Shown here in pieces: positions 3,931 through 44,626 of a DNA stretch of 64,000 bases. Where the stretch lies: positions 1-64,000 of the forward strand of contig NZ_RRCH01000024.1 in the NCBI RefSeq assembly GCF_003862495.1. The letters run 5' to 3'. The notes beneath the pieces are model-generated. The model was given only the letters and a program-made list of their open reading frames with translations, was not told where the DNA came from and made no database searches. Position numbers and translations under genes: made by a program. Source of the DNA: Halocatena pleomorpha. GTDB taxonomy: Archaea > Halobacteriota > Halobacteria > Halobacteriales > Haloarculaceae. Every line of letters starts with the position of its first letter. Position 1 is the stretch's first letter.

Positions 3931-4267
3931 ACATGTACTATACAGTTCTGTTCCTAATAGCTCGCCATCTCAAGGCATGCTATCATAGTGTCCTGTTCTT
4001 GACCATCACACAATCAACCTGCTCGTCGGATTGAATGACGGGGGACTACAGCGAAGTATCCAAATCCACACGGAGGATGATTCTTCGTTTGCTTCACTAT
4101 ACGGACTAGAGAACATGTATGACGACCCGGTGCATATTGGGCGGGCCCCTAGATGAGCGACCAATTGAGAGACGAGCAGACAGTGTGGTCTAAAGTTATC
4201 TCCTTGTTCCCCTTCTGTTCGGACCAAAACACTTGTCGTCTCATGGTCAATGAGACACATCATACCT

Positions 4268-11545: not shown

Positions 11546-12490
11546 GTGGAAATGGTGGGCGACAGAGAGGAGATCCAGATGATCGTCCGTGACTCTACCG
11601 ATCAGGAGGTAGCTAAATGCCCCGAATGTAATGGTCCTATCTCTCCCGGTACAACCCTTGATGAAACCGTCTGTGAGGAATGCGGGCTTATCGTTGCCGA
11701 AGATCGTCTCGATCGCAGTCCGGAGTGGCGAGCGTTCACCCATCAGGAACACCAGCAGAAAGCACGGGTTGGTGCGCCAACAACCCCGACAATGCACGAC
11801 AAGGGGCTGTCGACACAGATCGGGTGGCAAAACAAGGACGCCAACGGACAGTCGCTGTCGCCTCGCAAGCGTAAGCAGCTGGGACGGCTCCGTAAGTGGC
11901 ACAAGCGCTGTCAGACGTGGGACGGGAAAGAGCGCAATCTCAAGCAGGCGTTTTCGGAGATCGACCGGATGGCGAGTGCGCTTGGACTACCCAAATCCGC
12001 CTGCGAGACGGCGAGCGTCATCTACCGACGTGCGTTGTCTGCGAACCTGCTACTCGGACGATCGATTGAGAGTGTCGCCACTGCCACGTTGTACGCCGCT
12101 GCCCGAACGGAAGGGATTCCTCGCACGCTCGATGAAATGACGTCCGTTGCGCGCGTCGAGTACAACCGAATCGCGCGGGCGTATCGAGCGGTCATCGCCG
12201 AGTTAGAGCTAGCGATCGAACCGACCGACCCGATAGCGTACCTCCCCCGGTTCACGTCCGAGTTGGACTGTTCGCAGGCAACCCACCGGAAGACCCGTGA
12301 ACTTCTCGAAGGCGTCGTTGGCAGGCACTATACCAGCGGGAAAAGCCCAGTCGGATTGGCCGCAGCAGCACTGTACGCTGGCTCGTGTCTCACTGGCGAT
12401 CCACTCACCCAACAAGAGATCAGCGACGTGGCCAACGTCACGACCATGACGATCCGGACTCACTACAGAGAGTTCCTCAACGATGAGTGA
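11546..12490 (+). CDS. tfb: Transcription initiation factor IIB (TFB)
   Basis: 314 residues from the GTG at 11546; an in-frame ATG at 11552 is an equally good start. The zinc ribbon is C25-x2-C28 ... C43-x2-C46, followed by the B-finger/linker (SPEWRAF) and two cyclin repeats of about 90 residues each (about 120-205 and 215-310), with the recognition helix near VTTMTIRTHYREF. TFB bridges TBP-TATA and RNA polymerase. Haloarchaea carry many paralogues, often on plasmids, and these can redirect transcription. It overlaps the next gene by 8 bp. Confidence 0.93.
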   Translation: MEMVGDREEIQMIVRDSTDQEVAKCPECNGPISPGTTLDETVCEECGLIVAEDRLDRSPEWRAFTHQEHQQKARVGAPTTPTMHDKGLSTQIGWQNKDANGQSLSPRKRKQLGRLRKWHKRCQTWDGKERNLKQAFSEIDRMASALGLPKSACETASVIYRRALSANLLLGRSIESVATATLYAAARTEGIPRTLDEMTSVARVEYNRIARAYRAVIAELELAIEPTDPIAYLPRFTSELDCSQATHRKTRELLEGVVGRHYTSGKSPVGLAAAALYAGSCLTGDPLTQQEISDVANVTTMTIRTHYREFLNDE

Positions 12491-12878
12491 TCCAATGACA
12501 GACAGAGCCACCGAGGGACACACCACTCACCAGATTTCGTGTCCGGACTGCGACCGAACCTTTCCGGCGCACCGAGCGCCGTATATCGATTACCGGGGTG
12601 AAGAGATAGCTGAATACACCTGTCCGGGGTGCCGGGACACCATCATTCATCATCCACCGGAGCAGTACATTGAGCGTCCACCAGCGATCGTCGATCACAC
12701 CATACTCACCGATGAGACGGACCAGCCCATCGCGCGGGTGTTCTTCGAGGACGGAGCGTGGTTGCAGTATCGAGCGACCGATCGCCGGTGGGTCCGCGAG
12801 GAGCTGTTGGGAAAAGTGCCGAGAGGGATTCTTTGTCTCATTACGAGAGACGATCTCCCAGTGTCCTCCGTTTCATAA
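12483..12878 (+). CDS. Small zinc-binding protein downstream of TFB
   Basis: 131 residues; the start overlaps the TFB stop by 8 bp, so the two are translationally coupled. Two CxxC pairs (C20/C23 and C47/C50) form a probable zinc ribbon separated by a YRGE-rich hairpin. A 70-residue domain follows with RVFFEDGAWLQYRATDRRW, like a small beta-sheet module. A partner or modulator of the TFB is suggested only by the coupling. Confidence 0.7.
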   Translation: MSDPMTDRATEGHTTHQISCPDCDRTFPAHRAPYIDYRGEEIAEYTCPGCRDTIIHHPPEQYIERPPAIVDHTILTDETDQPIARVFFEDGAWLQYRATDRRWVREELLGKVPRGILCLITRDDLPVSSVS

Positions 12879-12939
12879 GAGATCAATTAATACCATTATG
12901 TGATAACGATGCGTCCAAAAATCGCCCGACAGCGCAGCC

Positions 12940-13108
12940 GGTCAGGGATCGTGGTCAGGGATCGGCGAATATCGTAGTTTATTTCTGATGTAGAAATTCA
13001 AAAACACCATACAGCGAGAGTGGTCAGGGATCGCCCGAAAGGAGGGCATCTCTGAGAACGCCTGGTCAGGGATTCATCGCCAGACGGGACGGGATCCGGT
13101 CAGGGATC
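12940..13108 (+). repeat. Iteron array 1 (GGTCAGGGATC, five copies)
   Basis: Five direct repeats of GGTCAGGGAT(C/T) start at 12940, 12953, 13022, 13064 and 13098. The first two are spaced 13 bp apart. The last abuts the C6 tract of the 52-bp structured element. A second array with a related but different repeat lies at 14683. Direct repeats next to a hairpin and AT-rich DNA are typical of iteron-type replication or partition sites. Confidence 0.85.
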
Positions 13109-13159
13109 CCCCCGAAAAACCAACTGATATAGAGGGGGGGCAAAGCCGTTGGTTTTCGA
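13108..13159 (+). repeat. 52-bp structured element, copy 1
   Basis: C6, then GAAAAACCAAC, a 9-nt loop TGATATAGA, G7, CAAAGCC, then GTTGGTTTTCGA. C6 can pair with G7, and GAAAACCAAC can pair with GTTGGTTTTC. The order of the arms (1-2-1'-2') is that of an H-type pseudoknot. The same 52 bp recurs without a mismatch at 14851. AT-rich DNA follows both copies. Confidence 0.85.
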
Positions 13160-13369
13160 ATAGGGAAATACTATTCGGTCACAGAAATATGTTTGATATC
13201 CGTCCATTGTGTCGAGTGCCCAGAGACACCGTCGACGGTGAGTGAAGTTACACGGCCAGTGGCGGGGTACACCTCTAGAATACCTTGTGATGCCGCTCAG
13301 CGGGACGGCAATCAGAGGGCATAGTGGTCTGCACCGCAACCGCTAACTGCGTATGTAGACCGTCTGTAT

Positions 13370-13955
13370 GCACGAGTACGTCCATCCGCGTCTCCGACAG
13401 CACACAACGGAGGCTTGACAGCCTGCGGAGGGACGATGCAACGTTTGATGATCTCCTCGCACGCCTCGCCACGCGTGAGCGGCCAATTGACATTGGAGCA
13501 TGGAGTGAGAAAGACGCCGATCGGGTGCGGGCAGCCGAGAAACGCTCCCGAGAGAGTGTCGAGCGGTGACGGTTCTCGATAGTTCCGTCATCATCGATAT
13601 GCTGGAAGGCATTCTGGCGAGTGTCACAGCCGTCGAGGACTGCGGCCAGCTATACCTGACGGCCTCTCTGTGTGTTCGAGGTCGTGAATGGAGTGATTGG
13701 AAGCGGGCAGACTGACGTCGTGGCAGTGCGCCAGCAGTTTGGAGGCGTGCAAGCGCTCATCCTGAATGTGTAGATCACGCTGGAGGCACCCGAATGCAGG
13801 ACACGTTGCTGGCTGATGGCCAACGGAAGGCCGCCCGCAACCTGCTGGTCGTGGCGCCATACGGTCTAGAGGATGAACTCATCGTCGCAGACAACGATTT
13901 TGAAACCCACCGTCTCACCGACCTGATGGATGTCACGAACTTTCGTACCGAACAA
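13370..13955 (+). pseudogene. vapBC toxin-antitoxin pair, decayed
   Basis: The antitoxin portion (to 13569) reads TSIRVSDSTQRRLDSLRR and is clearly VapB-like, but its ATG at about 13369 is out of frame by one base. The toxin starts with GTG at 13566, overlapping the antitoxin stop by four bases as in live vapBC pairs. It opens with a PIN motif VLDSSVIID. Its frame breaks near 13665 (the CVFEVVNGVIG continuation is in another frame) and again near 13790; the PIN C-terminus (LIVADNDFETHRL) is in a third frame. It is therefore inactive. Confidence 0.8.
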
Positions 13956-14682
13956 TGGCGCATAGAGAGACGCATGACACGGTTCCCCGGCGCGCGTAGT
14001 TGCATCTCCCGCTCAAGGGGGCCTCCTTGGCCTATGATGTGTCATCTCCAATACAGCCCTGGCTCCGCCTACCACGAAAGGGGAAACGATACGTAGACGA
14101 ACGACCGCAGGGCACGATCAACGAAGAGAACCAAGACGACGATGTTCGAGACACCCATTCGTCGATAGGACAGCGAAGGCACTCGTGCGTTGTATGCTCA
14201 TAGAGAACCATCCAACCGGCCTCACAATCAGAACTGTCTCGATCGGAGGACTGGTTCGCCGGCTCGGGCATGAGCGGCGCTCGCGATCTTTACAGATCGT
14301 CTCAACGACGCGCTCGGTCTCGAGGAACTCACCGACTCGCTGGCTGCGTTCATCACCCCGCTCGAGGAACGTCGCAACGCTGGCGCTGTCCTTCGAGTTC
14401 GAGCGCCGCACTGACGACGTCACTCACGGGACTGTCGCACTCGTCCGTTTGGCCCTTCAACGCTAGCGGGCTGTACGGTCACGGGCGGCGATCTACACAG
14501 TAGTACGTCGCTATAAGAACTGACGTACACCTAGCAGCACACGAGCTGCCACGTGCTGGTCACAGGAACGCCGTTCGTCCGGTCCGGGGCAGCAGTACGG
14601 GAGTGACCACCTATATAAAATATATTTGTTATTTCATACTCATTGAAATCATCTATCCAATAATCGCGAGACGGCGCGGTGA
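13956..14682. other. Degenerate region between the two iteron modules
   Basis: Only scraps of coding sequence remain. Around 14300-14466 two plus frames read LEELTDSLAAFITPLEERR and then FEFERRTDDVTHGTVALVRL, one broken gene of unknown type. The rest shows no protein-like frame. Confidence 0.5.
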
Positions 14683-14851
14683 GTCAAGGGTGTGGTCAAG
14701 GGTCACTGGTGACACTCGTATTTATCTCCCAAATAACTCTGAAAATAACACGACGGGAAGGCGAGTCAAGGGTCGTGGTCAAGGGTCGAAGATTCTCGCT
14801 TGCGCGCGTCAAGGGTCGAATCGATAGACGGCAGTCGGTTCGTCAAGGGTC
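14683..14851 (+). repeat. Iteron array 2 (GTCAAGGGTC, six copies)
   Basis: Six direct repeats of GTCAAGGGT(C) start at 14683, 14695, 14765, 14778, 14808 and 14842. Two close pairs are 12-13 bp apart, as in array 1, and the last copy again abuts the C6 tract of the structured element. Spacing and total length match array 1, but the repeat unit has diverged at two positions in a coordinated way. Confidence 0.85.
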
Positions 14852-14902
14852 CCCCCGAAAAACCAACTGATATAGAGGGGGGGCAAAGCCGTTGGTTTTC
14901 GA
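14851..14902 (+). repeat. 52-bp structured element, copy 2
   Basis: Identical over 52 bp to the element at 13108-13159, including both interleaved pairing arms (CGAAAAACCAAC at 14856-14867 with GTTGGTTTTCG at 14891-14901, and C6 with G7). It is followed by AT-rich sequence (GGATATTTCC...TAATTAATACATTAGATAT). Confidence 0.85.
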
Positions 14903-16029
14903 GCGTGGATATTTCCTATAGAGTAATTAATACATTAGATATCTGACTATGATCAGCAGGGTGGCTGAAGGATACCTACCAGGGGGGTGTGTCAGTATCA
15001 GCCGGCCACTCTGGCAGTGGCCGGGCAGCGATCGAGTGATGCGTCACTGGCGCTAGCGCGCCCTGCCAGCGAACCACGCTGTATGCTGGGATGGATTTCC
15101 CAGTAGTGGTCAGGACTGAACCGCTAAGAGCATCGGGGCGACCAACGACGATGGCGATGGCAGTGCTGGACAGCACTCACTGCTCACAGGACGGCCCCAG
15201 TCAGTCGGGCCTCAGGTCCGATCACTTGGCGAGAACACTGGCCCAGCAGCGGATTGCTCCGTGACGACCATCGGTCCCTCTGTCCGATCGATCCCACGCC
15301 CAGTTTGGGTCTCAGTTGCGGGCCACAAGTGCCCGGACAGCCAGCCGGCACCGACGGGGGGATACCTCACCGAATATCACACCGTGTTTCCGATGAAATC
15401 CGCATACCAGCATTGGGTCCAATACTGCACCACAGGGGTGTGTGGTAGTGAAACTGAGCACTCCGCTGGGGCCTCGAACACACACCGGTTTGCACGAGAA
15501 AAACCGCGAGCCTGCTCGGGGAACTGACCGGCAACGACGAGCTCATGAACCCACGGTGGGCCCCCGGGTGTCCACGCACCACGACCGGCTGAGGGTGCGA
15601 CCTTCCATGCACTGGTAAGGGTGCTGGGTGACAACTACGAGGCCGACCGATCGATGCTCGGGGACCGGGGCATCACCTGTGACCGACATTTCCGGCCGGC
15701 CTACACGGCAACCAGAGTACCACCGGACTCCAGTCTAGTACTCCGAGTCGCCGCCGAGTGGACATCACTGGTGGCACCGATAGCTCCTGAGCTACCAGTA
15801 CCGGCCGCACCGTCGACGAGCTAAAGCACCAGCTACCCAGAGGCCACCCGCCGACTGCCCAAGAGAACACTGGACGTTCTGAGACAGCGACGGCCCCTTA
15901 CGGCGGTCAACAGCGCCCTCTCAGCCGACTACAGACACGTGGCCGAGCTCGGCGAGCAGCGTGTCCACTGTCCCGATCGGTGTGCTCTCAACACGCGTGA
16001 TCGCTCACCAACCCGTCTCAATACACCAC
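14903..16029. other. Non-coding, palindrome-rich stretch
   Basis: No frame of protein-like composition on either strand. The DNA is unusually dense in CAGT/ACTG and CCAG/CTGG words and short inverted repeats (for example around 15000-15070 and 15150-15210). A short plus-strand frame near 15880-15980 (SALSADYRHVAELGEQ) may be the tail of a lost gene. Confidence 0.45.
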
Positions 16030-16479
16030 TCACACGTCACCAGTGTCAGCAGGGACGAGCGTCAATCCAAGGGTGCGAAAATCCCCGTCAAACGCGAAAA
16101 TATGTTCACTGTCCCGATCGATAGCAAGAACACCAGTCATGTGATCGGTGAACGAGATGGCATGATCGTCGTAGCGGGCAAACTGTACACAGGCAGCCTC
16201 AAAGTCCGCTTCACTCGGATGGATGAGCGTCAGTGAATCGGACTGTCGAAGCCGATCTAACGTGGCCGACGCTCGCTCATGGGTGTGTTTGCGCCGAATC
16301 AGCGTGGTGAGTTCATCGAGAACATATGTCGAGGTGTAGAGGGGCCGGTACGCGAGCTCGCCCGTTTGAATCGCATCGAACACCGCTCGGGCTCGCTCAT
16401 GACGCGGGGCGTTATCGACAAACCGCGCGAACAACGCACCCGTGTCGAGAAACAACGCTGTTGCTCCTGCCCGACTCAT
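16030..16479 (-). CDS. PIN-domain ribonuclease toxin (VapC-like)
   Basis: 149 residues. Acidic residues of the PIN active site are present: D12 in ALFLDTGAL, D55/E56 in YVLDELTTL, D112 in ISFTDHMT and D131/D133 in FAFDGDF. The family cleaves RNA, commonly tRNA or rRNA, when freed from its antitoxin. The start ATG at 16479 directly follows the antitoxin stop (TAAATG), so the pair is translationally coupled. Confidence 0.88.
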   Translation of the reverse strand: MSRAGATALFLDTGALFARFVDNAPRHERARAVFDAIQTGELAYRPLYTSTYVLDELTTLIRRKHTHERASATLDRLRQSDSLTLIHPSEADFEAACVQFARYDDHAISFTDHMTGVLAIDRDSEHIFAFDGDFRTLGLTLVPADTGDV

Positions 16480-16989: not shown

Positions 16990-17150
16990 AGTTGTCTCAT
17001 TGAGGGATGCCCTGGCGACGTACACGCGAAGCCACCGGCACAATAGCCACTCATCACTATCTCACAAGGATTCGATAGAGCAACCACCACACTGCTCGCG
17101 GGTGACCGGTCCCATAGATTTTTCACACATCGCCGTTACATGTGGAATCA

Positions 17151-18635
17151 ATGGGTGTCGAGCCGTCGACAGAGACGCAGGCCACCAAGGAACTGACATC
17201 CTTGCAGGACACACTTGAGAGCGACCAGATCGCGTTCGTCGATACGGTTGCTACCGAGATCGAGACAGTGCTCGAAGCGGCCAGCGAGCTCCACCGCTAT
17301 GAGTACGTGATCGGGGAGGTTACCAACTACGGCATCTCATCGAACGACCACGTGCACTTCGATCTCGTCCACGAGGGCTGTCAGCTCCACTGTGTGGTCC
17401 TCCACTTCCGCCGGGAGGACATTCCCACAGAGCTCGAGGACGGAGTGCAAGTTGCTGTCACTGGCGAGCTTTCGTTTTATACCGTCGACAACTACTGTTC
17501 GATCATGGTCGAGGACGCCGTCACCGTCGGGGAGGGCACCTACCAACAGACTTACGAGGCCAACAAGCAACTGCTCGCCGACGACGGACTCCTTGATGAC
17601 GCCACGAAACAACCCCTGCCAGACTATCCCTCCTGTGTTGGTCTTGTCACCAGTGCAGCGAGCGACGCCCGTGACGATGCGGTGACGAGCATCCACCGCC
17701 GCCATCCCGGTGTGGCAATCATCGTTCAGGACACGACCGTTCAGGGTGAGAGCGCAGGGCCATCGATGATGCAAGCAATCGGCACCCTCGATACGGACGC
17801 GCGGGTCGATGTGATCGTCTTGACACGCGGGGGCGGGTCTGACACCCATCTCCGCGTGTTCAACGATACCGCGCTCTGTCGTGTGGTCCACAATACGCAG
17901 ACCCCGATCGCTGTCGGCGTGGGCCATGAGGCTGATCGCACGCTTGCTGAGGATGTCGCCGACCAGCGCGTGATGACCCCCACGGAGGTCGGCCAAATCG
18001 TGCCACGCTATGAGACACTGACTGAGCAACTCACCCAGCAACACGAGCAACTCACGACGGCCTCCACCCAGCTAGCGAACGATCGCGTCATCGCCCTGCA
18101 ACAGCGGCTGACTCAGAGCTATGAGCAGCACGTGATGAGCGAACTCGATGCCCTAACAACCACCCTTACCAACACCTACGAGACACTCGCCTCCCGCAAA
18201 CGCTACGAACACGAACAACTCGACAGACAACACGACCACCTTGCCGCCGCCTACCGACAGGTGGTAACCAATAAGCTCACCGGTCAGCACCAACGGCTTG
18301 AGCAGGCCTACGAGCGGCACCTAACACGTGTGCTCACCGATCGGGCAACGACACTGAATCACGCCTACAGCAGCCTCAAACGACAGAGACACCGCGACCG
18401 GGAACAGCTCATGCAACAGCACAACCGGCTCGATGTAGCGTACACCCAAACTGTGTCTGACCGGGTGAACAACGCCAGCCAGCGACTTGATCATGCCTAT
18501 GAGGTTCTTGAACAGCAAAAGCGCCATGAGCGCGAACAGGCCCAAACGACGCACGCTCACCATCGCCAACAGATCGCTCTCGCTGCCTTGCTTCTGCTTG
18601 TGATATTACTCGTTGGCTATATCATACTAACGTGA
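17151..18635 (+). CDS. xseA: Exodeoxyribonuclease VII large subunit with a C-terminal membrane segment
   Basis: 494 residues from ATG 17151. An OB-fold nucleic-acid-binding domain (to about 120) is followed by the XseA catalytic core: VGLVTSAASDARDD, VIVLTRGGGS, then FNDTALCRVV and VGVGHEADRTLAEDVADQR. A long coiled-coil region follows, rich in Gln/His/Arg heptads, in which the large subunit binds XseB copies. The last 20 residues are a continuous hydrophobic helix (LLLLVILLVGYIILT), unusual for this cytosolic nuclease. xseB follows 25 bp downstream. The complex degrades single-stranded DNA. Confidence 0.92.
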   Translation: MGVEPSTETQATKELTSLQDTLESDQIAFVDTVATEIETVLEAASELHRYEYVIGEVTNYGISSNDHVHFDLVHEGCQLHCVVLHFRREDIPTELEDGVQVAVTGELSFYTVDNYCSIMVEDAVTVGEGTYQQTYEANKQLLADDGLLDDATKQPLPDYPSCVGLVTSAASDARDDAVTSIHRRHPGVAIIVQDTTVQGESAGPSMMQAIGTLDTDARVDVIVLTRGGGSDTHLRVFNDTALCRVVHNTQTPIAVGVGHEADRTLAEDVADQRVMTPTEVGQIVPRYETLTEQLTQQHEQLTTASTQLANDRVIALQQRLTQSYEQHVMSELDALTTTLTNTYETLASRKRYEHEQLDRQHDHLAAAYRQVVTNKLTGQHQRLEQAYERHLTRVLTDRATTLNHAYSSLKRQRHRDREQLMQQHNRLDVAYTQTVSDRVNNASQRLDHAYEVLEQQKRHEREQAQTTHAHHRQQIALAALLLLVILLVGYIILT

Positions 18636-19211: not shown

Positions 19212-20477
19212 TCAACGCACAGTCTCTCTCAGTTTACTTAAATCATCGATTTCGTCATCTTCCTCACTTTCTAACGCATTAATAACGGTTTCAAGTGGTG
19301 TATCAAGTTCGTATTTATTTGGTCGACCTCTACCACGCTGATCGGGTGTTACGTTCTTCAGAATGCCATTATCACACATTTCAAGTAGATGTTCGTGAGC
19401 ACCACGCCGAGTAAGCGGATCTCGACCAAAATCATTTGCTATTGTTTTATAGTATTCATAGATCTCTCTTGTTTGAGCAGGTGTCTTTTTCTGTGCGGCA
19501 AGATTTGTGATAGCGAGAAGAACATATTTTCGATGTGTTGGGAGCTTTCGAATTCCTGTTGTCACCTGTTTACGTTCGATCACGTCTTCAGCTGCTCGAA
19601 CATGTTGTTCTTTAATACATTCAGTCTCGCCAGTCTCGACTGCTTCGTTTTCAGCGAGTTCAGCAGCTTTTCGTAGTAGACGGATAGCCTGACGGGCAGA
19701 TCCACGATCGCGTGAGGCGAGTGCCGCACAAAGATCGATAATGCCTGGTTCAGTTACACCGTCGTAGAATGCTTGATCAGCACGACGAGAGAGTATCGAA
19801 ACAAGGTCGTTCCGCTCGTATGCTGGAAAGTGAAGCTCGGTTTCGCAAAGTGTATCCTTTACCCTGGCAGGAAGTTCATCGCGGAACTGGAAGTCGTTAC
19901 TGATCCCAATAAGACATAGCTCAGCGTCGAGTTTGTGCATTGTTTGCGCTCGAGTGAGTTGGTAGAGCAATTCGGTATTATTCCCAAGTGTATTCACCTC
20001 ATCGAGGATAAGTATAATATTCTCTGCAGCTTCACTCAGATCACCAAATAGTTCATCATAGACTTGTTCAGTAGGATATCCTGTCTTACTCAGCTCAGGC
20101 TTATTTATAGAAAGGGTTGTCAATGGATACGTACGGTTTCGAGCCTCATTGATGAGTTCGATCGCTGATTGGTATGATGTGTTTGCAGATGAGCAATTTA
20201 TTTCAAGAAGATCAACATCAATAGACTGTTTCTCAGCTGTTTCTCGTAAATCGGGAAGTAAAATACGCGTAGCAACGGTCTTACCGACGCCCGAATGGCC
20301 GTAGAGGAAGATATTATCGAGATCCCAACCTTTCAATAGAGGACGAAGAAGCTTGACGTAGTCTTCGATTTCATCGTCTCGTTCCTCCAGTTTCTTGGGC
20401 TGATGTTCTGGTTTCAGCACGCTCCGGTCCTTTATGATGTATTCATCGAGGAAGCTATCATCGTCGAAATAGCCCAT
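19212..20477 (-). CDS. orc1: Orc1/Cdc6 family replication initiator
   Basis: 421 residues from ATG 20477 (MGYFDDDSF); an in-frame start at 20492 would add five. Walker A GHSGVGKT is at 60-67, Walker B ILILDE ends at 160, a sensor-1 region GISNDF follows, and a C-terminal winged helix contains the REIYEYYKTIANDFG segment. The protein binds origin recognition boxes and loads MCM. ORB-like repeats lie on both sides of the gene, so this is a self-contained origin. The gene is more AT-rich than its neighbours, as is common for plasmid-borne orc1 genes. Confidence 0.93.
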   Translation of the reverse strand: MGYFDDDSFLDEYIIKDRSVLKPEHQPKKLEERDDEIEDYVKLLRPLLKGWDLDNIFLYGHSGVGKTVATRILLPDLRETAEKQSIDVDLLEINCSSANTSYQSAIELINEARNRTYPLTTLSINKPELSKTGYPTEQVYDELFGDLSEAAENIILILDEVNTLGNNTELLYQLTRAQTMHKLDAELCLIGISNDFQFRDELPARVKDTLCETELHFPAYERNDLVSILSRRADQAFYDGVTEPGIIDLCAALASRDRGSARQAIRLLRKAAELAENEAVETGETECIKEQHVRAAEDVIERKQVTTGIRKLPTHRKYVLLAITNLAAQKKTPAQTREIYEYYKTIANDFGRDPLTRRGAHEHLLEMCDNGILKNVTPDQRGRGRPNKYELDTPLETVINALESEEDDEIDDLSKLRETVR

Positions 20478-20560
20478 GCTATAACACCACAAGATGAACC
20501 CATAAAACCACCGCTTCTAACCCTACCACCCATACCGTCTCTTCCAATCACGAGTTTCTT

Positions 20561-27497: not shown

Positions 27498-28388
27498 TCA
27501 GTAAGATTTGCTCGTCACGAGTGTACCGGTGTCGTCTTCGACCGTCACGGTATCACCGCCGTTATTCCAAATTGCACTCGACGATCCCCAGTAGCGATCT
27601 GTTTGCGTATCCGAGCCGCTCCCGGTATGGAGCGTGACAGTCTCACCGGCCGCGAGCGACGCACCACTCGGGAACGTGTATACGTGTCTTGCCTCATCTG
27701 AGACCGTCCACTCCGACAAATCAAGCGTCTCCGATCCTGTATTTGTGAACGTCACATATTCGTCACTGAGATTCTCATTGTCGTTCCCAGTCGCATCGGC
27801 GTGGATCTCTGTAATTGAAAGGGAACTCCCGCTACTCGGCTCACGACACTGCCACAGACCGCGTTCGGCCGTTTGGGCATCCGATTCAGCGGCATAGAAC
27901 CGGTCAGACTGGCTGAATTCACTGTCGTACACGCGCGCGTTGCCCGTATCGATGAGGTCGTAATTGAGATTCTGGCCATCATCATGGATATACGCAAGTA
28001 ACCGGCCGTAGTCGCCCCGCCCATCGCTTGCTGCATCCAACTCAAGCGTTATCTGTTCGCCCTGCTGCAACCTGTCCTTGGTATACTGACTCGCATCTTC
28101 ACCAGCCGCATCCAGACACTGTATCCCAGCTTCTGTGTCCGGGACCCCTTCATATTCAGTCGGATCGTTTTCGCTGTAGACCTCCGGCGTGTCAACTCCG
28201 AGCAGCCGCACGGTGTCGGTCGTCCCATTCGCATACTCGACGTCAACCGTATCACCATCGGTCACCGACGTGACCGTCGCACTCAGCGTATCACTTGTCG
28301 TCGAGGGACTGCCAACGACGCCCGCTGGAATCGCAACGGCGAGCACTGCCATCACCACCACTATGTGAGACGTTCGTATCACATTCAT
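27498..28388 (-). CDS. Secreted staphylococcal-nuclease-type enzyme with lamin-tail domain
   Basis: 296 residues. A Sec signal (1-27) precedes an SNase domain: SVTDGDTVDVEY, R61-LLGVDTPE69, and DYGR129LLAYIHDDG. R61, E69 and R129 match the catalytic Arg-Glu-Arg of staphylococcal nuclease. It ends in an approximately 100-residue lamin-tail beta-sandwich (SLSITEIHADATGNDNENLS...IWNNGGDTVTVED). It would degrade extracellular DNA or RNA, using Ca2+. A near-duplicate with its promoter lies at 43736. Confidence 0.92.
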   Translation of the reverse strand: MNVIRTSHIVVVMAVLAVAIPAGVVGSPSTTSDTLSATVTSVTDGDTVDVEYANGTTDTVRLLGVDTPEVYSENDPTEYEGVPDTEAGIQCLDAAGEDASQYTKDRLQQGEQITLELDAASDGRGDYGRLLAYIHDDGQNLNYDLIDTGNARVYDSEFSQSDRFYAAESDAQTAERGLWQCREPSSGSSLSITEIHADATGNDNENLSDEYVTFTNTGSETLDLSEWTVSDEARHVYTFPSGASLAAGETVTLHTGSGSDTQTDRYWGSSSAIWNNGGDTVTVEDDTGTLVTSKSY

Positions 28389-43735: not shown

Positions 43736-44626
43736 TCAGTAGGATTTGCTTGTTATGACGGTCCCAGCACTGTCTTTGACCGTCACGGTATCGCCACCGT
43801 TGTTCCAGATCGCACTTGAGGATCCCCAGTAGCGATCACTGGCTGTGTCCAAGCCGCTGCCTGTGTGGAGCGTGACAGTCTCACCGGCCGCGAGCGACGC
43901 ACCACTCGGGAACGTGTAGGTGTGACCCGCGTCGTCTGATACCGACCAGCCCGAGAGATCGAGCGTGTCAGTACCTGTATTCTCGAACACCACGTATTCA
44001 TCGTTCAAATTCTCGTTGTCGTTCCCAGCCGCGTCGGCATGAATCTCTGTGACGGAAAGGCTGCTCTCACTCCCTGCGTTCCGACATTGCCACAGGCCGC
44101 GCTCAGCTGCTTGAGCATCTGATTCGGCCGCATAGAAGCGATCACTCTGGCTGAATTGGCTGTCGTAGACGCGTGCGTGGCCGGTGTCGACGAGGTTGTA
44201 GTTGAGATTCACTCCGTCATCGTGGATGTACGCCAACAACCGACCATAGTCTCCCCGCCCATCGCTTTCAGCATCGAGTTCAAGTGTCACCTGCTCACCC
44301 GTCTGGAGCTCGTCTTTCATATATGCACTTGCGGCGTCCCCTGCATCGCTGAGACATTGCTCACCTGCTTCCGTATCTGGGACGCCTTCGAATTCCGTGG
44401 GGTCGTTTTCGCCATACACTTCAGGGGTGTCCACCCCGAGCAACCGCACGGTGTCGGTCGTCCCATTCGAGTATTCAATATCAACAGTATCCCCGTCCGT
44501 CACACCGGTCACCATCGCCGTGAGTTCAGTGCTTGTCGTCGAAGGACTGCCCACGACGCCCGCTGGAATCGCAACGGCCAACACTGCCATCACCACTACT
44601 ATATGCGATGTTCGCATCACGTCCAT
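43736..44626 (-). CDS. Secreted staphylococcal-nuclease-type enzyme with lamin-tail domain (second copy)
   Basis: 296 residues, the same length and architecture as the 27498 gene: Sec signal, SNase with RLLGVDTPE and DYGRLLAYIHDDG, then the lamin-tail domain. Substitutions are scattered (VTGVTDGDTVDIEYSNG, ESSLSVTEIHADAAGND). Promoter and signal peptide are almost unchanged, so this is a recent paralogue rather than an independent import. All three catalytic residues are kept, so both copies should be active. Confidence 0.92.
   Translation of the reverse strand: MDVMRTSHIVVVMAVLAVAIPAGVVGSPSTTSTELTAMVTGVTDGDTVDIEYSNGTTDTVRLLGVDTPEVYGENDPTEFEGVPDTEAGEQCLSDAGDAASAYMKDELQTGEQVTLELDAESDGRGDYGRLLAYIHDDGVNLNYNLVDTGHARVYDSQFSQSDRFYAAESDAQAAERGLWQCRNAGSESSLSVTEIHADAAGNDNENLNDEYVVFENTGTDTLDLSGWSVSDDAGHTYTFPSGASLAAGETVTLHTGSGLDTASDRYWGSSSAIWNNGGDTVTVKDSAGTVITSKSY

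Follow-up and report, generated by a model that had tools for sequence, protein, structure and literature searches.

The window analysed here, a 64,000-nucleotide stretch of Halocatena pleomorpha DNA, contains two arrays of short direct repeats (iterons) that close in one and the same 52 bp, and the question raised by this locus is what an element with a constant part and a part that differs between its two copies is for. Array 1 (12940–13108, plus strand) comprises five iterons of the form GGTCAGGGAT(C/T), that is GGTCAGGGATY, at 12940–12950, 12953–12963, 13022–13032, 13064–13074 and 13098–13108. Array 2 (14683–14851, plus strand) comprises six iterons of the form GTCAAGGGT(C/G), starting at 14683, 14695, 14765, 14778, 14808 and 14842. 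The pattern GTCARGGRTC occurs nine times in the window, compared with 0.88 expected and a maximum of four in dinucleotide shuffles, and the 52 bp at 13108–13159 are identical to those at 14851–14902, for which the chance expectation is 0. The two arrays with a shared ending that a preliminary description had pointed out are therefore far above chance expectation, and their spacing, with close pairs 12–13 bp apart and a last copy abutting the C tract, is as it had been described. Core 1 (13108–13159, plus strand) consists of a C6 tract, a 5′ arm CCAAC at 13120–13124, TGATATAGA, a G7 run and a 3′ arm GTTGG at 13148–13152. Core 2 (14851–14902, plus strand) has its arms at 14863–14867 and 14891–14895, and there is no third copy elsewhere in the genome. 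We found an additional component that had been overlooked, a box resembling AATCGCAAGACGGCG upstream of the iterons. It precedes the first iteron of array 1 at 12920–12934 (plus strand; weaker copies at 13002–13016 and 13075–13089) and, with one mismatch, array 2 at 14662–14676 (plus strand; weaker copies at 14744–14758 and 14819–14833). The true borders of the elements lie slightly further upstream, at about 12915 and 14655.

A search of 391 Halobacteria genomes recovered divergent cores with other iterons in many genera, most of them beside the same genes. The core pattern matched 86 of the 391 genomes and its reversed control matched none; the exact Halocatena core had no match in IMG/VR or the GTDB genome collection, and the family pattern had none in IMG/VR. 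The core is neither the end of an insertion sequence nor part of a gene, and nearly all of its homologues are accompanied by arrays. Outside Halocatena, the conserved features are AAAACCRACTAGTATAGANNGGGG and covarying CCRAC/GTYGG arms; the part common to 73 distinct cores reads AAAACC(A/G)ACTAGTATAGA..GGGG followed by GTYGG, relative to which the Halocatena core carries one extra G. Across the 73 distinct cores, 86.6% of cells show pairing between the arms, compared with a mean of 80.6% and a maximum of 83.0% in shuffles and at most 41% in slid registers; these cells do not represent independent events, and the 3′ arm has been lost from one subgroup. The arm pairs include CCAAC/GTTGG (39 times), CCGAC/GTCGG (11 times) and ACGAC/GTCGT (twice). 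This covariation appears to favour a hairpin over two fixed protein half-sites, because such half-sites would sit 27 bp apart. The interleaved complementarity of C6/G7 and CCAAC/GTTGG that had been read as a pseudoknot is present in the Halocatena sequence, but a conserved pseudoknot of interleaved helices does not hold up: only the CCRAC/GTYGG helix covaries, and the C run beside the core is four bases or shorter in all 68 non-Halocatena sequences, so that the C6 tract is confined to Halocatena. The AATCGCAAGACGGCG box precedes the iterons throughout the family, with a best match of zero to two mismatches in 31 of 87 relatives versus 0 of 1,740 shuffles. The iterons themselves vary by lineage (GTTCCACCC, GTTACGGCA, GTCCAGGCA, GTCCACGCA, GGTCAGGGG, GTGTCAAGGGA, GGACGGACG and others), and a few loci have weak repeats only. 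The array 1 unit of 8–9 bp (GGTCAGGGG; GGTCAGGG) is shared with complete systems (L103–L105), and a unit resembling that of array 2, TGTCAAGGGA, occurs in L024.

Nearly all cores sit between a gene for an ATPase of 1,300–1,550 amino acids and a gene for an NrS-1-type primase of about 410 amino acids, which matches the NrS-1 polymerase HBD domain (PF22763, E 2e-30). The ATPase was found in 153 of the 391 genomes, from which we fetched 80 ATPase-defined loci; wherever an ATPase with a C-terminal tail and the primase lay no more than 500 bp apart, the core was in the gap (76 of 76), and array and core together fill these gaps of 270–460 bp. The ATPase matches the DUF87/HerA, TrwB_AAD_bind and T4SS-DNA_transf families, the gene upstream of it is annotated as a VirB4-family or transfer protein, and several of the plasmids are typed as MPF_T. 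Two plasmids with a tail-less ATPase (L218 and L220) have the same operon, but the ATPase gene overlaps that of the primase, which is a different one, and there is neither a gap nor a core. The pNG600-type systems are an exception, as they have the tail but no core adjoining it; in pNG600 (L219), a tailed T4SS ATPase at 11953–16323 stands without an adjoining array, core or NrS-1 primase, and the recognition site of this class may lie elsewhere. At another locus (L025, 5076–6308 and 6652–10653), primase and ATPase tail match opposite ends of phrog_1829, a primase family of 772 amino acids, which gives the impression of an initiator whose two ends have come to lie on either side of the array, a HerA-type motor having taken the place of the helicase.

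The ATPase tail matches Pox_D5 in 25 of 30 loci. Its AlphaFold model, confident over the domain, is a winged helix whose best match in the PDB is the RFX DNA-binding domain 1dp7 (TM 0.88). The resemblance to eukaryotic RFX DNA-binding domains can be seen in L103 at 1042–1377, and several iterons, such as GTTACGGCA and GTTCCACCC, loosely recall the RFX half-site. Among about 80 relatives, iteron similarity followed tail identity with a partial Spearman rho of 0.476, which none of 300 permutations reached, whereas the partial rho was 0.07 for the ATPase body and −0.03 for the primase. In pairs with 70–90% body identity, tail identity was 0.81 when the iterons were alike and 0.34 when they were unlike. 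Core similarity, by comparison, tracked the ATPase body most (partial rho 0.32). The earlier idea of one conserved structural component combined with separable, co-diverging specificity repeats is thereby borne out across the family, the iterons co-varying with the DNA-binding tail and the core following the rest of the ATPase. These correlations suggest that the variable iterons are likely to be read by the tail, so that the putative reader is a transfer-type ATPase.

The window contig and the 172-kb plasmid unnamed4 of Halocatena salina have no match to the transfer ATPase, the primase or VirB4, and the tail domain is absent everywhere in the H. salina genome, which has four arrays and no reader. 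The only tailed ATPase in the window genome, on another contig (C36), has an array of its own (GTCTAGGGT) and core arms CCGAC/GTCGG; it uses GTCTAGGG-like iterons, and a reader exactly matching the window arrays was not found in this genome. Such orphan sites occur elsewhere. A 637-kb plasmid of Natribaculum breve carries two, one with the unit GTCCAGGCA, which is also the unit of a complete system (L135) on another plasmid of the same genome. A further contig (L208; G387:C66) has three orphan cores within 1.4 kb, at 4065 (minus strand), 4751 (plus strand) and 5399 (minus strand), with three iteron types (GTCCAGGGTA, GTTCAGGG and GTCCACGCA) and a short ATPase-tail fragment adjoining. Of nine orphans that share 150 nt or more with a complete system, seven have homology confined to the noncoding block, whereas in comparisons among complete systems of similar identity the homology extended into the genes in 57 of 57. 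Since orphan homology ends in the noncoding block, the sites either move or are retained independently of the genes, which is how cis-acting sites that are used in trans should behave. This pattern suggests that orphan sites may be mobilised in trans, like staphylococcal oriT mimics.

On balance, we think it probable, as judged from these sequence comparisons, that array and core form the cis-acting site by which a conjugation-type plasmid system of haloarchaea recognises its DNA; most likely, this site is the transfer origin. A role in transfer is favoured because the ATPase has HerA/TrwB/T4SS coupling similarity and follows a VirB4-type or transfer gene, and because of the MPF_T typing. In the mechanism that we infer, the HerA/T4SS coupling-type ATPase would bind and read the variable iterons with its C-terminal, RFX-like winged helix, and this reading would position the DNA pump. 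In single-stranded form the conserved core would probably fold into a hairpin, and it would serve a step common to all systems, which may be the opening of the strands and priming by the NrS-1-type primase whose gene follows directly. The window would then hold two orphan sites of different specificity, and its plasmid could be moved in trans by a conjugative plasmid with a matching reader.

An alternative for the window itself, which we regard as rather doubtful, is that its two copies no longer have a function and are inert remnants of conjugative plasmids that have been lost. The contig lacks reader, T4SS and primase, and xseA (17142–18635, plus strand), a gene near the arrays, is common to conjugative plasmids, adjoining the transfer operon in pCBA1232-02 and pNG600 as well. 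The corresponding stretch of H. salina unnamed4 has three arrays, with units GGTCAGGGATC, GTCAAGGGTC and GGTCTAGGGTC, of which array 2 is decaying by iteron loss and core mutation; a further array, with unit GGTCAGGGGTT, lies on plasmid unnamed1. Type I-D and type I-B CRISPR-Cas sets are found on either side of the three-array stretch (L006). Against decay in the window, its arrays are nearly perfect even though the vapBC pair between them is dead. That degenerate insert (13334–14077, plus strand), 79% identical to intact vapB/PIN genes of H. salina unnamed1 (L007, 21989–22733), is indeed present as previously reported, but it lies outside the element and is incidental to it, being absent at that place on the homologous H. 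salina plasmid. Core 2 shows no substitutions relative to the core of H. salina array 3, whereas the adjoining 600 bp differ by 7.7%, a contrast that speaks against a relic, although conversion could produce it. Orphans elsewhere, moreover, are cleanly cut from the genes and clustered with several specificities. The upstream flank of window array 2 resembles that of H. salina array 2, whereas its core and downstream flank resemble those of H. salina array 3. Comparison of these flanks indicates that array copies have recombined within the core and that the 52/52 identity stems at least partly from recombination; because of this, the identity alone is no proof of constraint, and substitution rates between the window and H. 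salina do not reach the level at which constraint on the arrays could be proved. The roughly 600 bp of noncoding DNA 3′ of core 2 (14903–15515) is 89% identical to unnamed1 and about 92% identical to unnamed4, with no gene recognised in it. Elsewhere in the window, two near-alike genes for a predicted secreted nuclease-like protein lie on the minus strand at 27498–28388 and 43736–44626.

A second alternative, which we consider unlikely, is that the element is a vegetative iteron origin, in which the D5/RFX-like tail would be the iteron-binding part of a split P4/NrS-1-type initiator, the HerA protein its helicase, and the primase would start at the core. Iterons, an AT-rich stretch, a hairpin and a primase gene make up an origin-like layout, and phrog_1829 (772 amino acids) matches the primase at 4–336 and the ATPase tail at 685–757, so that parts of one initiator would flank the array. 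Multi-domain primases with such ends would suit a replication origin equally well, and phrog_1829 is a contrary hint that the array might initiate replication, possibly tied to transfer. However, all four complete plasmids that we examined have their own orc1/cdc6 and ParA genes, both away from the element, which makes a transfer origin of the clt or oriT kind likelier than a vegetative one. The motor is a T4SS-type ATPase within a transfer operon, and orphan arrays reside on replicons without any reader. The GC skew of the four plasmids was so weak that no origin could be placed by it, and it did not single out the core. Two of the four encode an ArdC-like single-stranded-DNA-binding protein, and no relaxase is noted in their annotation; relaxases have not been recognised in archaeal conjugative plasmids (PMC9905601). 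The window has an AAA ATPase gene (19212–20492, minus strand) 4.3 kb from the arrays, whose homologue in the same position in H. salina is annotated ‘AAA family ATPase’; sequence inspection suggests that it is Orc1/Cdc6-like and likely the replication initiator of the window plasmid. Incompatibility switching of replication or partition sites, the function first envisaged for the diverged repeats, has to be divided: replication incompatibility is less likely than transfer specificity given the separate orc1/cdc6 genes, and a partition site was rejected, the ParA genes of the four plasmids being far from the element.

It is very unlikely that array and core do no more than control the primase gene downstream as its operator and promoter, with TAGTATAG as the TATA box and autoregulatory iterons. 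The core does lie 105–140 bp upstream of most primase starts, with a TATA-like stretch, but this distance is variable and long by haloarchaeal promoter standards, orphans retain both array and core although no primase gene follows them, and arm covariation across a 22-nt spacer is no promoter feature. The interleaved complementarity in Halocatena could be cited for a structured RNA containing a C6/G7 pseudoknot, but this reading can practically be dismissed: the C runs of the 68 non-Halocatena cores are short, Rfam gave no match, and the stability of the strand when folded as DNA does not exceed that of shuffles (z about −1).

We found no described haloarchaeal element of this form in the open-access literature, in line with the preliminary description, and no described archaeal transfer origin. 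We therefore offer, more tentatively than the assignment of a transfer origin itself, the proposal that these elements could be the first family of archaeal transfer origins, which would be relaxase-free and read by an RFX-like tail on the T4SS ATPase, and whose covarying hairpin core a PrimPol would use, together with natural plasmids that would collect two or three orphan sites of different specificity for carriage by several conjugative plasmids. Roughly two in five of the Halobacteria genomes searched contain the plasmid system, and for the question of how archaeal conjugative plasmids choose and process DNA, the element offers a genetically testable candidate site and reader. Tail and iterons together would amount to a specificity rule, and the element to a sequence tag for spotting possibly mobilisable non-conjugative haloarchaeal plasmids.

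Several known systems resemble the element in part. Repeats, an AT-rich stretch and runs of G are among the features of haloarchaeal origins. The element shares these with Orc1/Cdc6-dependent origins and is likewise noncoding and plasmid-borne (PMC3528665), but it does not adjoin orc1/cdc6, has other repeats and belongs to plasmids with a separate orc1/cdc6. The P4/NrS-1-type primase-helicases with a D5-like C-terminal winged helix have a PrimPol end and a tail homologous to those described here (phrog_1829, PF22763 and PF03288), and the alpha protein of phage P4 is known to bind iterons with such a tail; in the haloarchaeal systems, however, the two ends are in two genes that flank the array, and the motor is of the HerA/T4SS type rather than an SF3 helicase. 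The element is homologous to neither of the two transfer sites that it most recalls in its organisation, Streptomyces clt and the staphylococcal oriT. Like clt (TraB/TraA; PMC3583192), it is noncoding, is built of short direct and inverted repeats, adjoins a DNA translocase gene, with iterons in the gap directly downstream of the tailed ATPase gene, and would need no relaxase. In clt, a C-terminal winged helix of the translocase reads 8-bp repeats, a role that is putative for the tail described here. The clt translocase is of the FtsK/SpoIIIE (TraB) type, whereas the haloarchaeal one is of the HerA/TrwB type with another winged helix, and clt, which is bacterial, has neither a core common to plasmids nor an NrS-1-type primase gene alongside; the haloarchaeal element would thus work like clt but, judged by its ATPase family, is not a member of that class. 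In the staphylococcal pWBG749 family (PMC8136818), the core of oriT and of its mimics is likewise identical while the specificity sites have diverged, an accessory DNA-binding protein sets the specificity and switches with its sites against plasmid phylogeny, and orphan sites occur on plasmids without transfer genes, just as the window contig lacks transfer genes and has in array 1 a unit common to complete systems. There, a relaxase (SmpP) works with a separate RHH protein (SmpO), whereas in the haloarchaeal system the likely reader is the tail of the ATPase itself.
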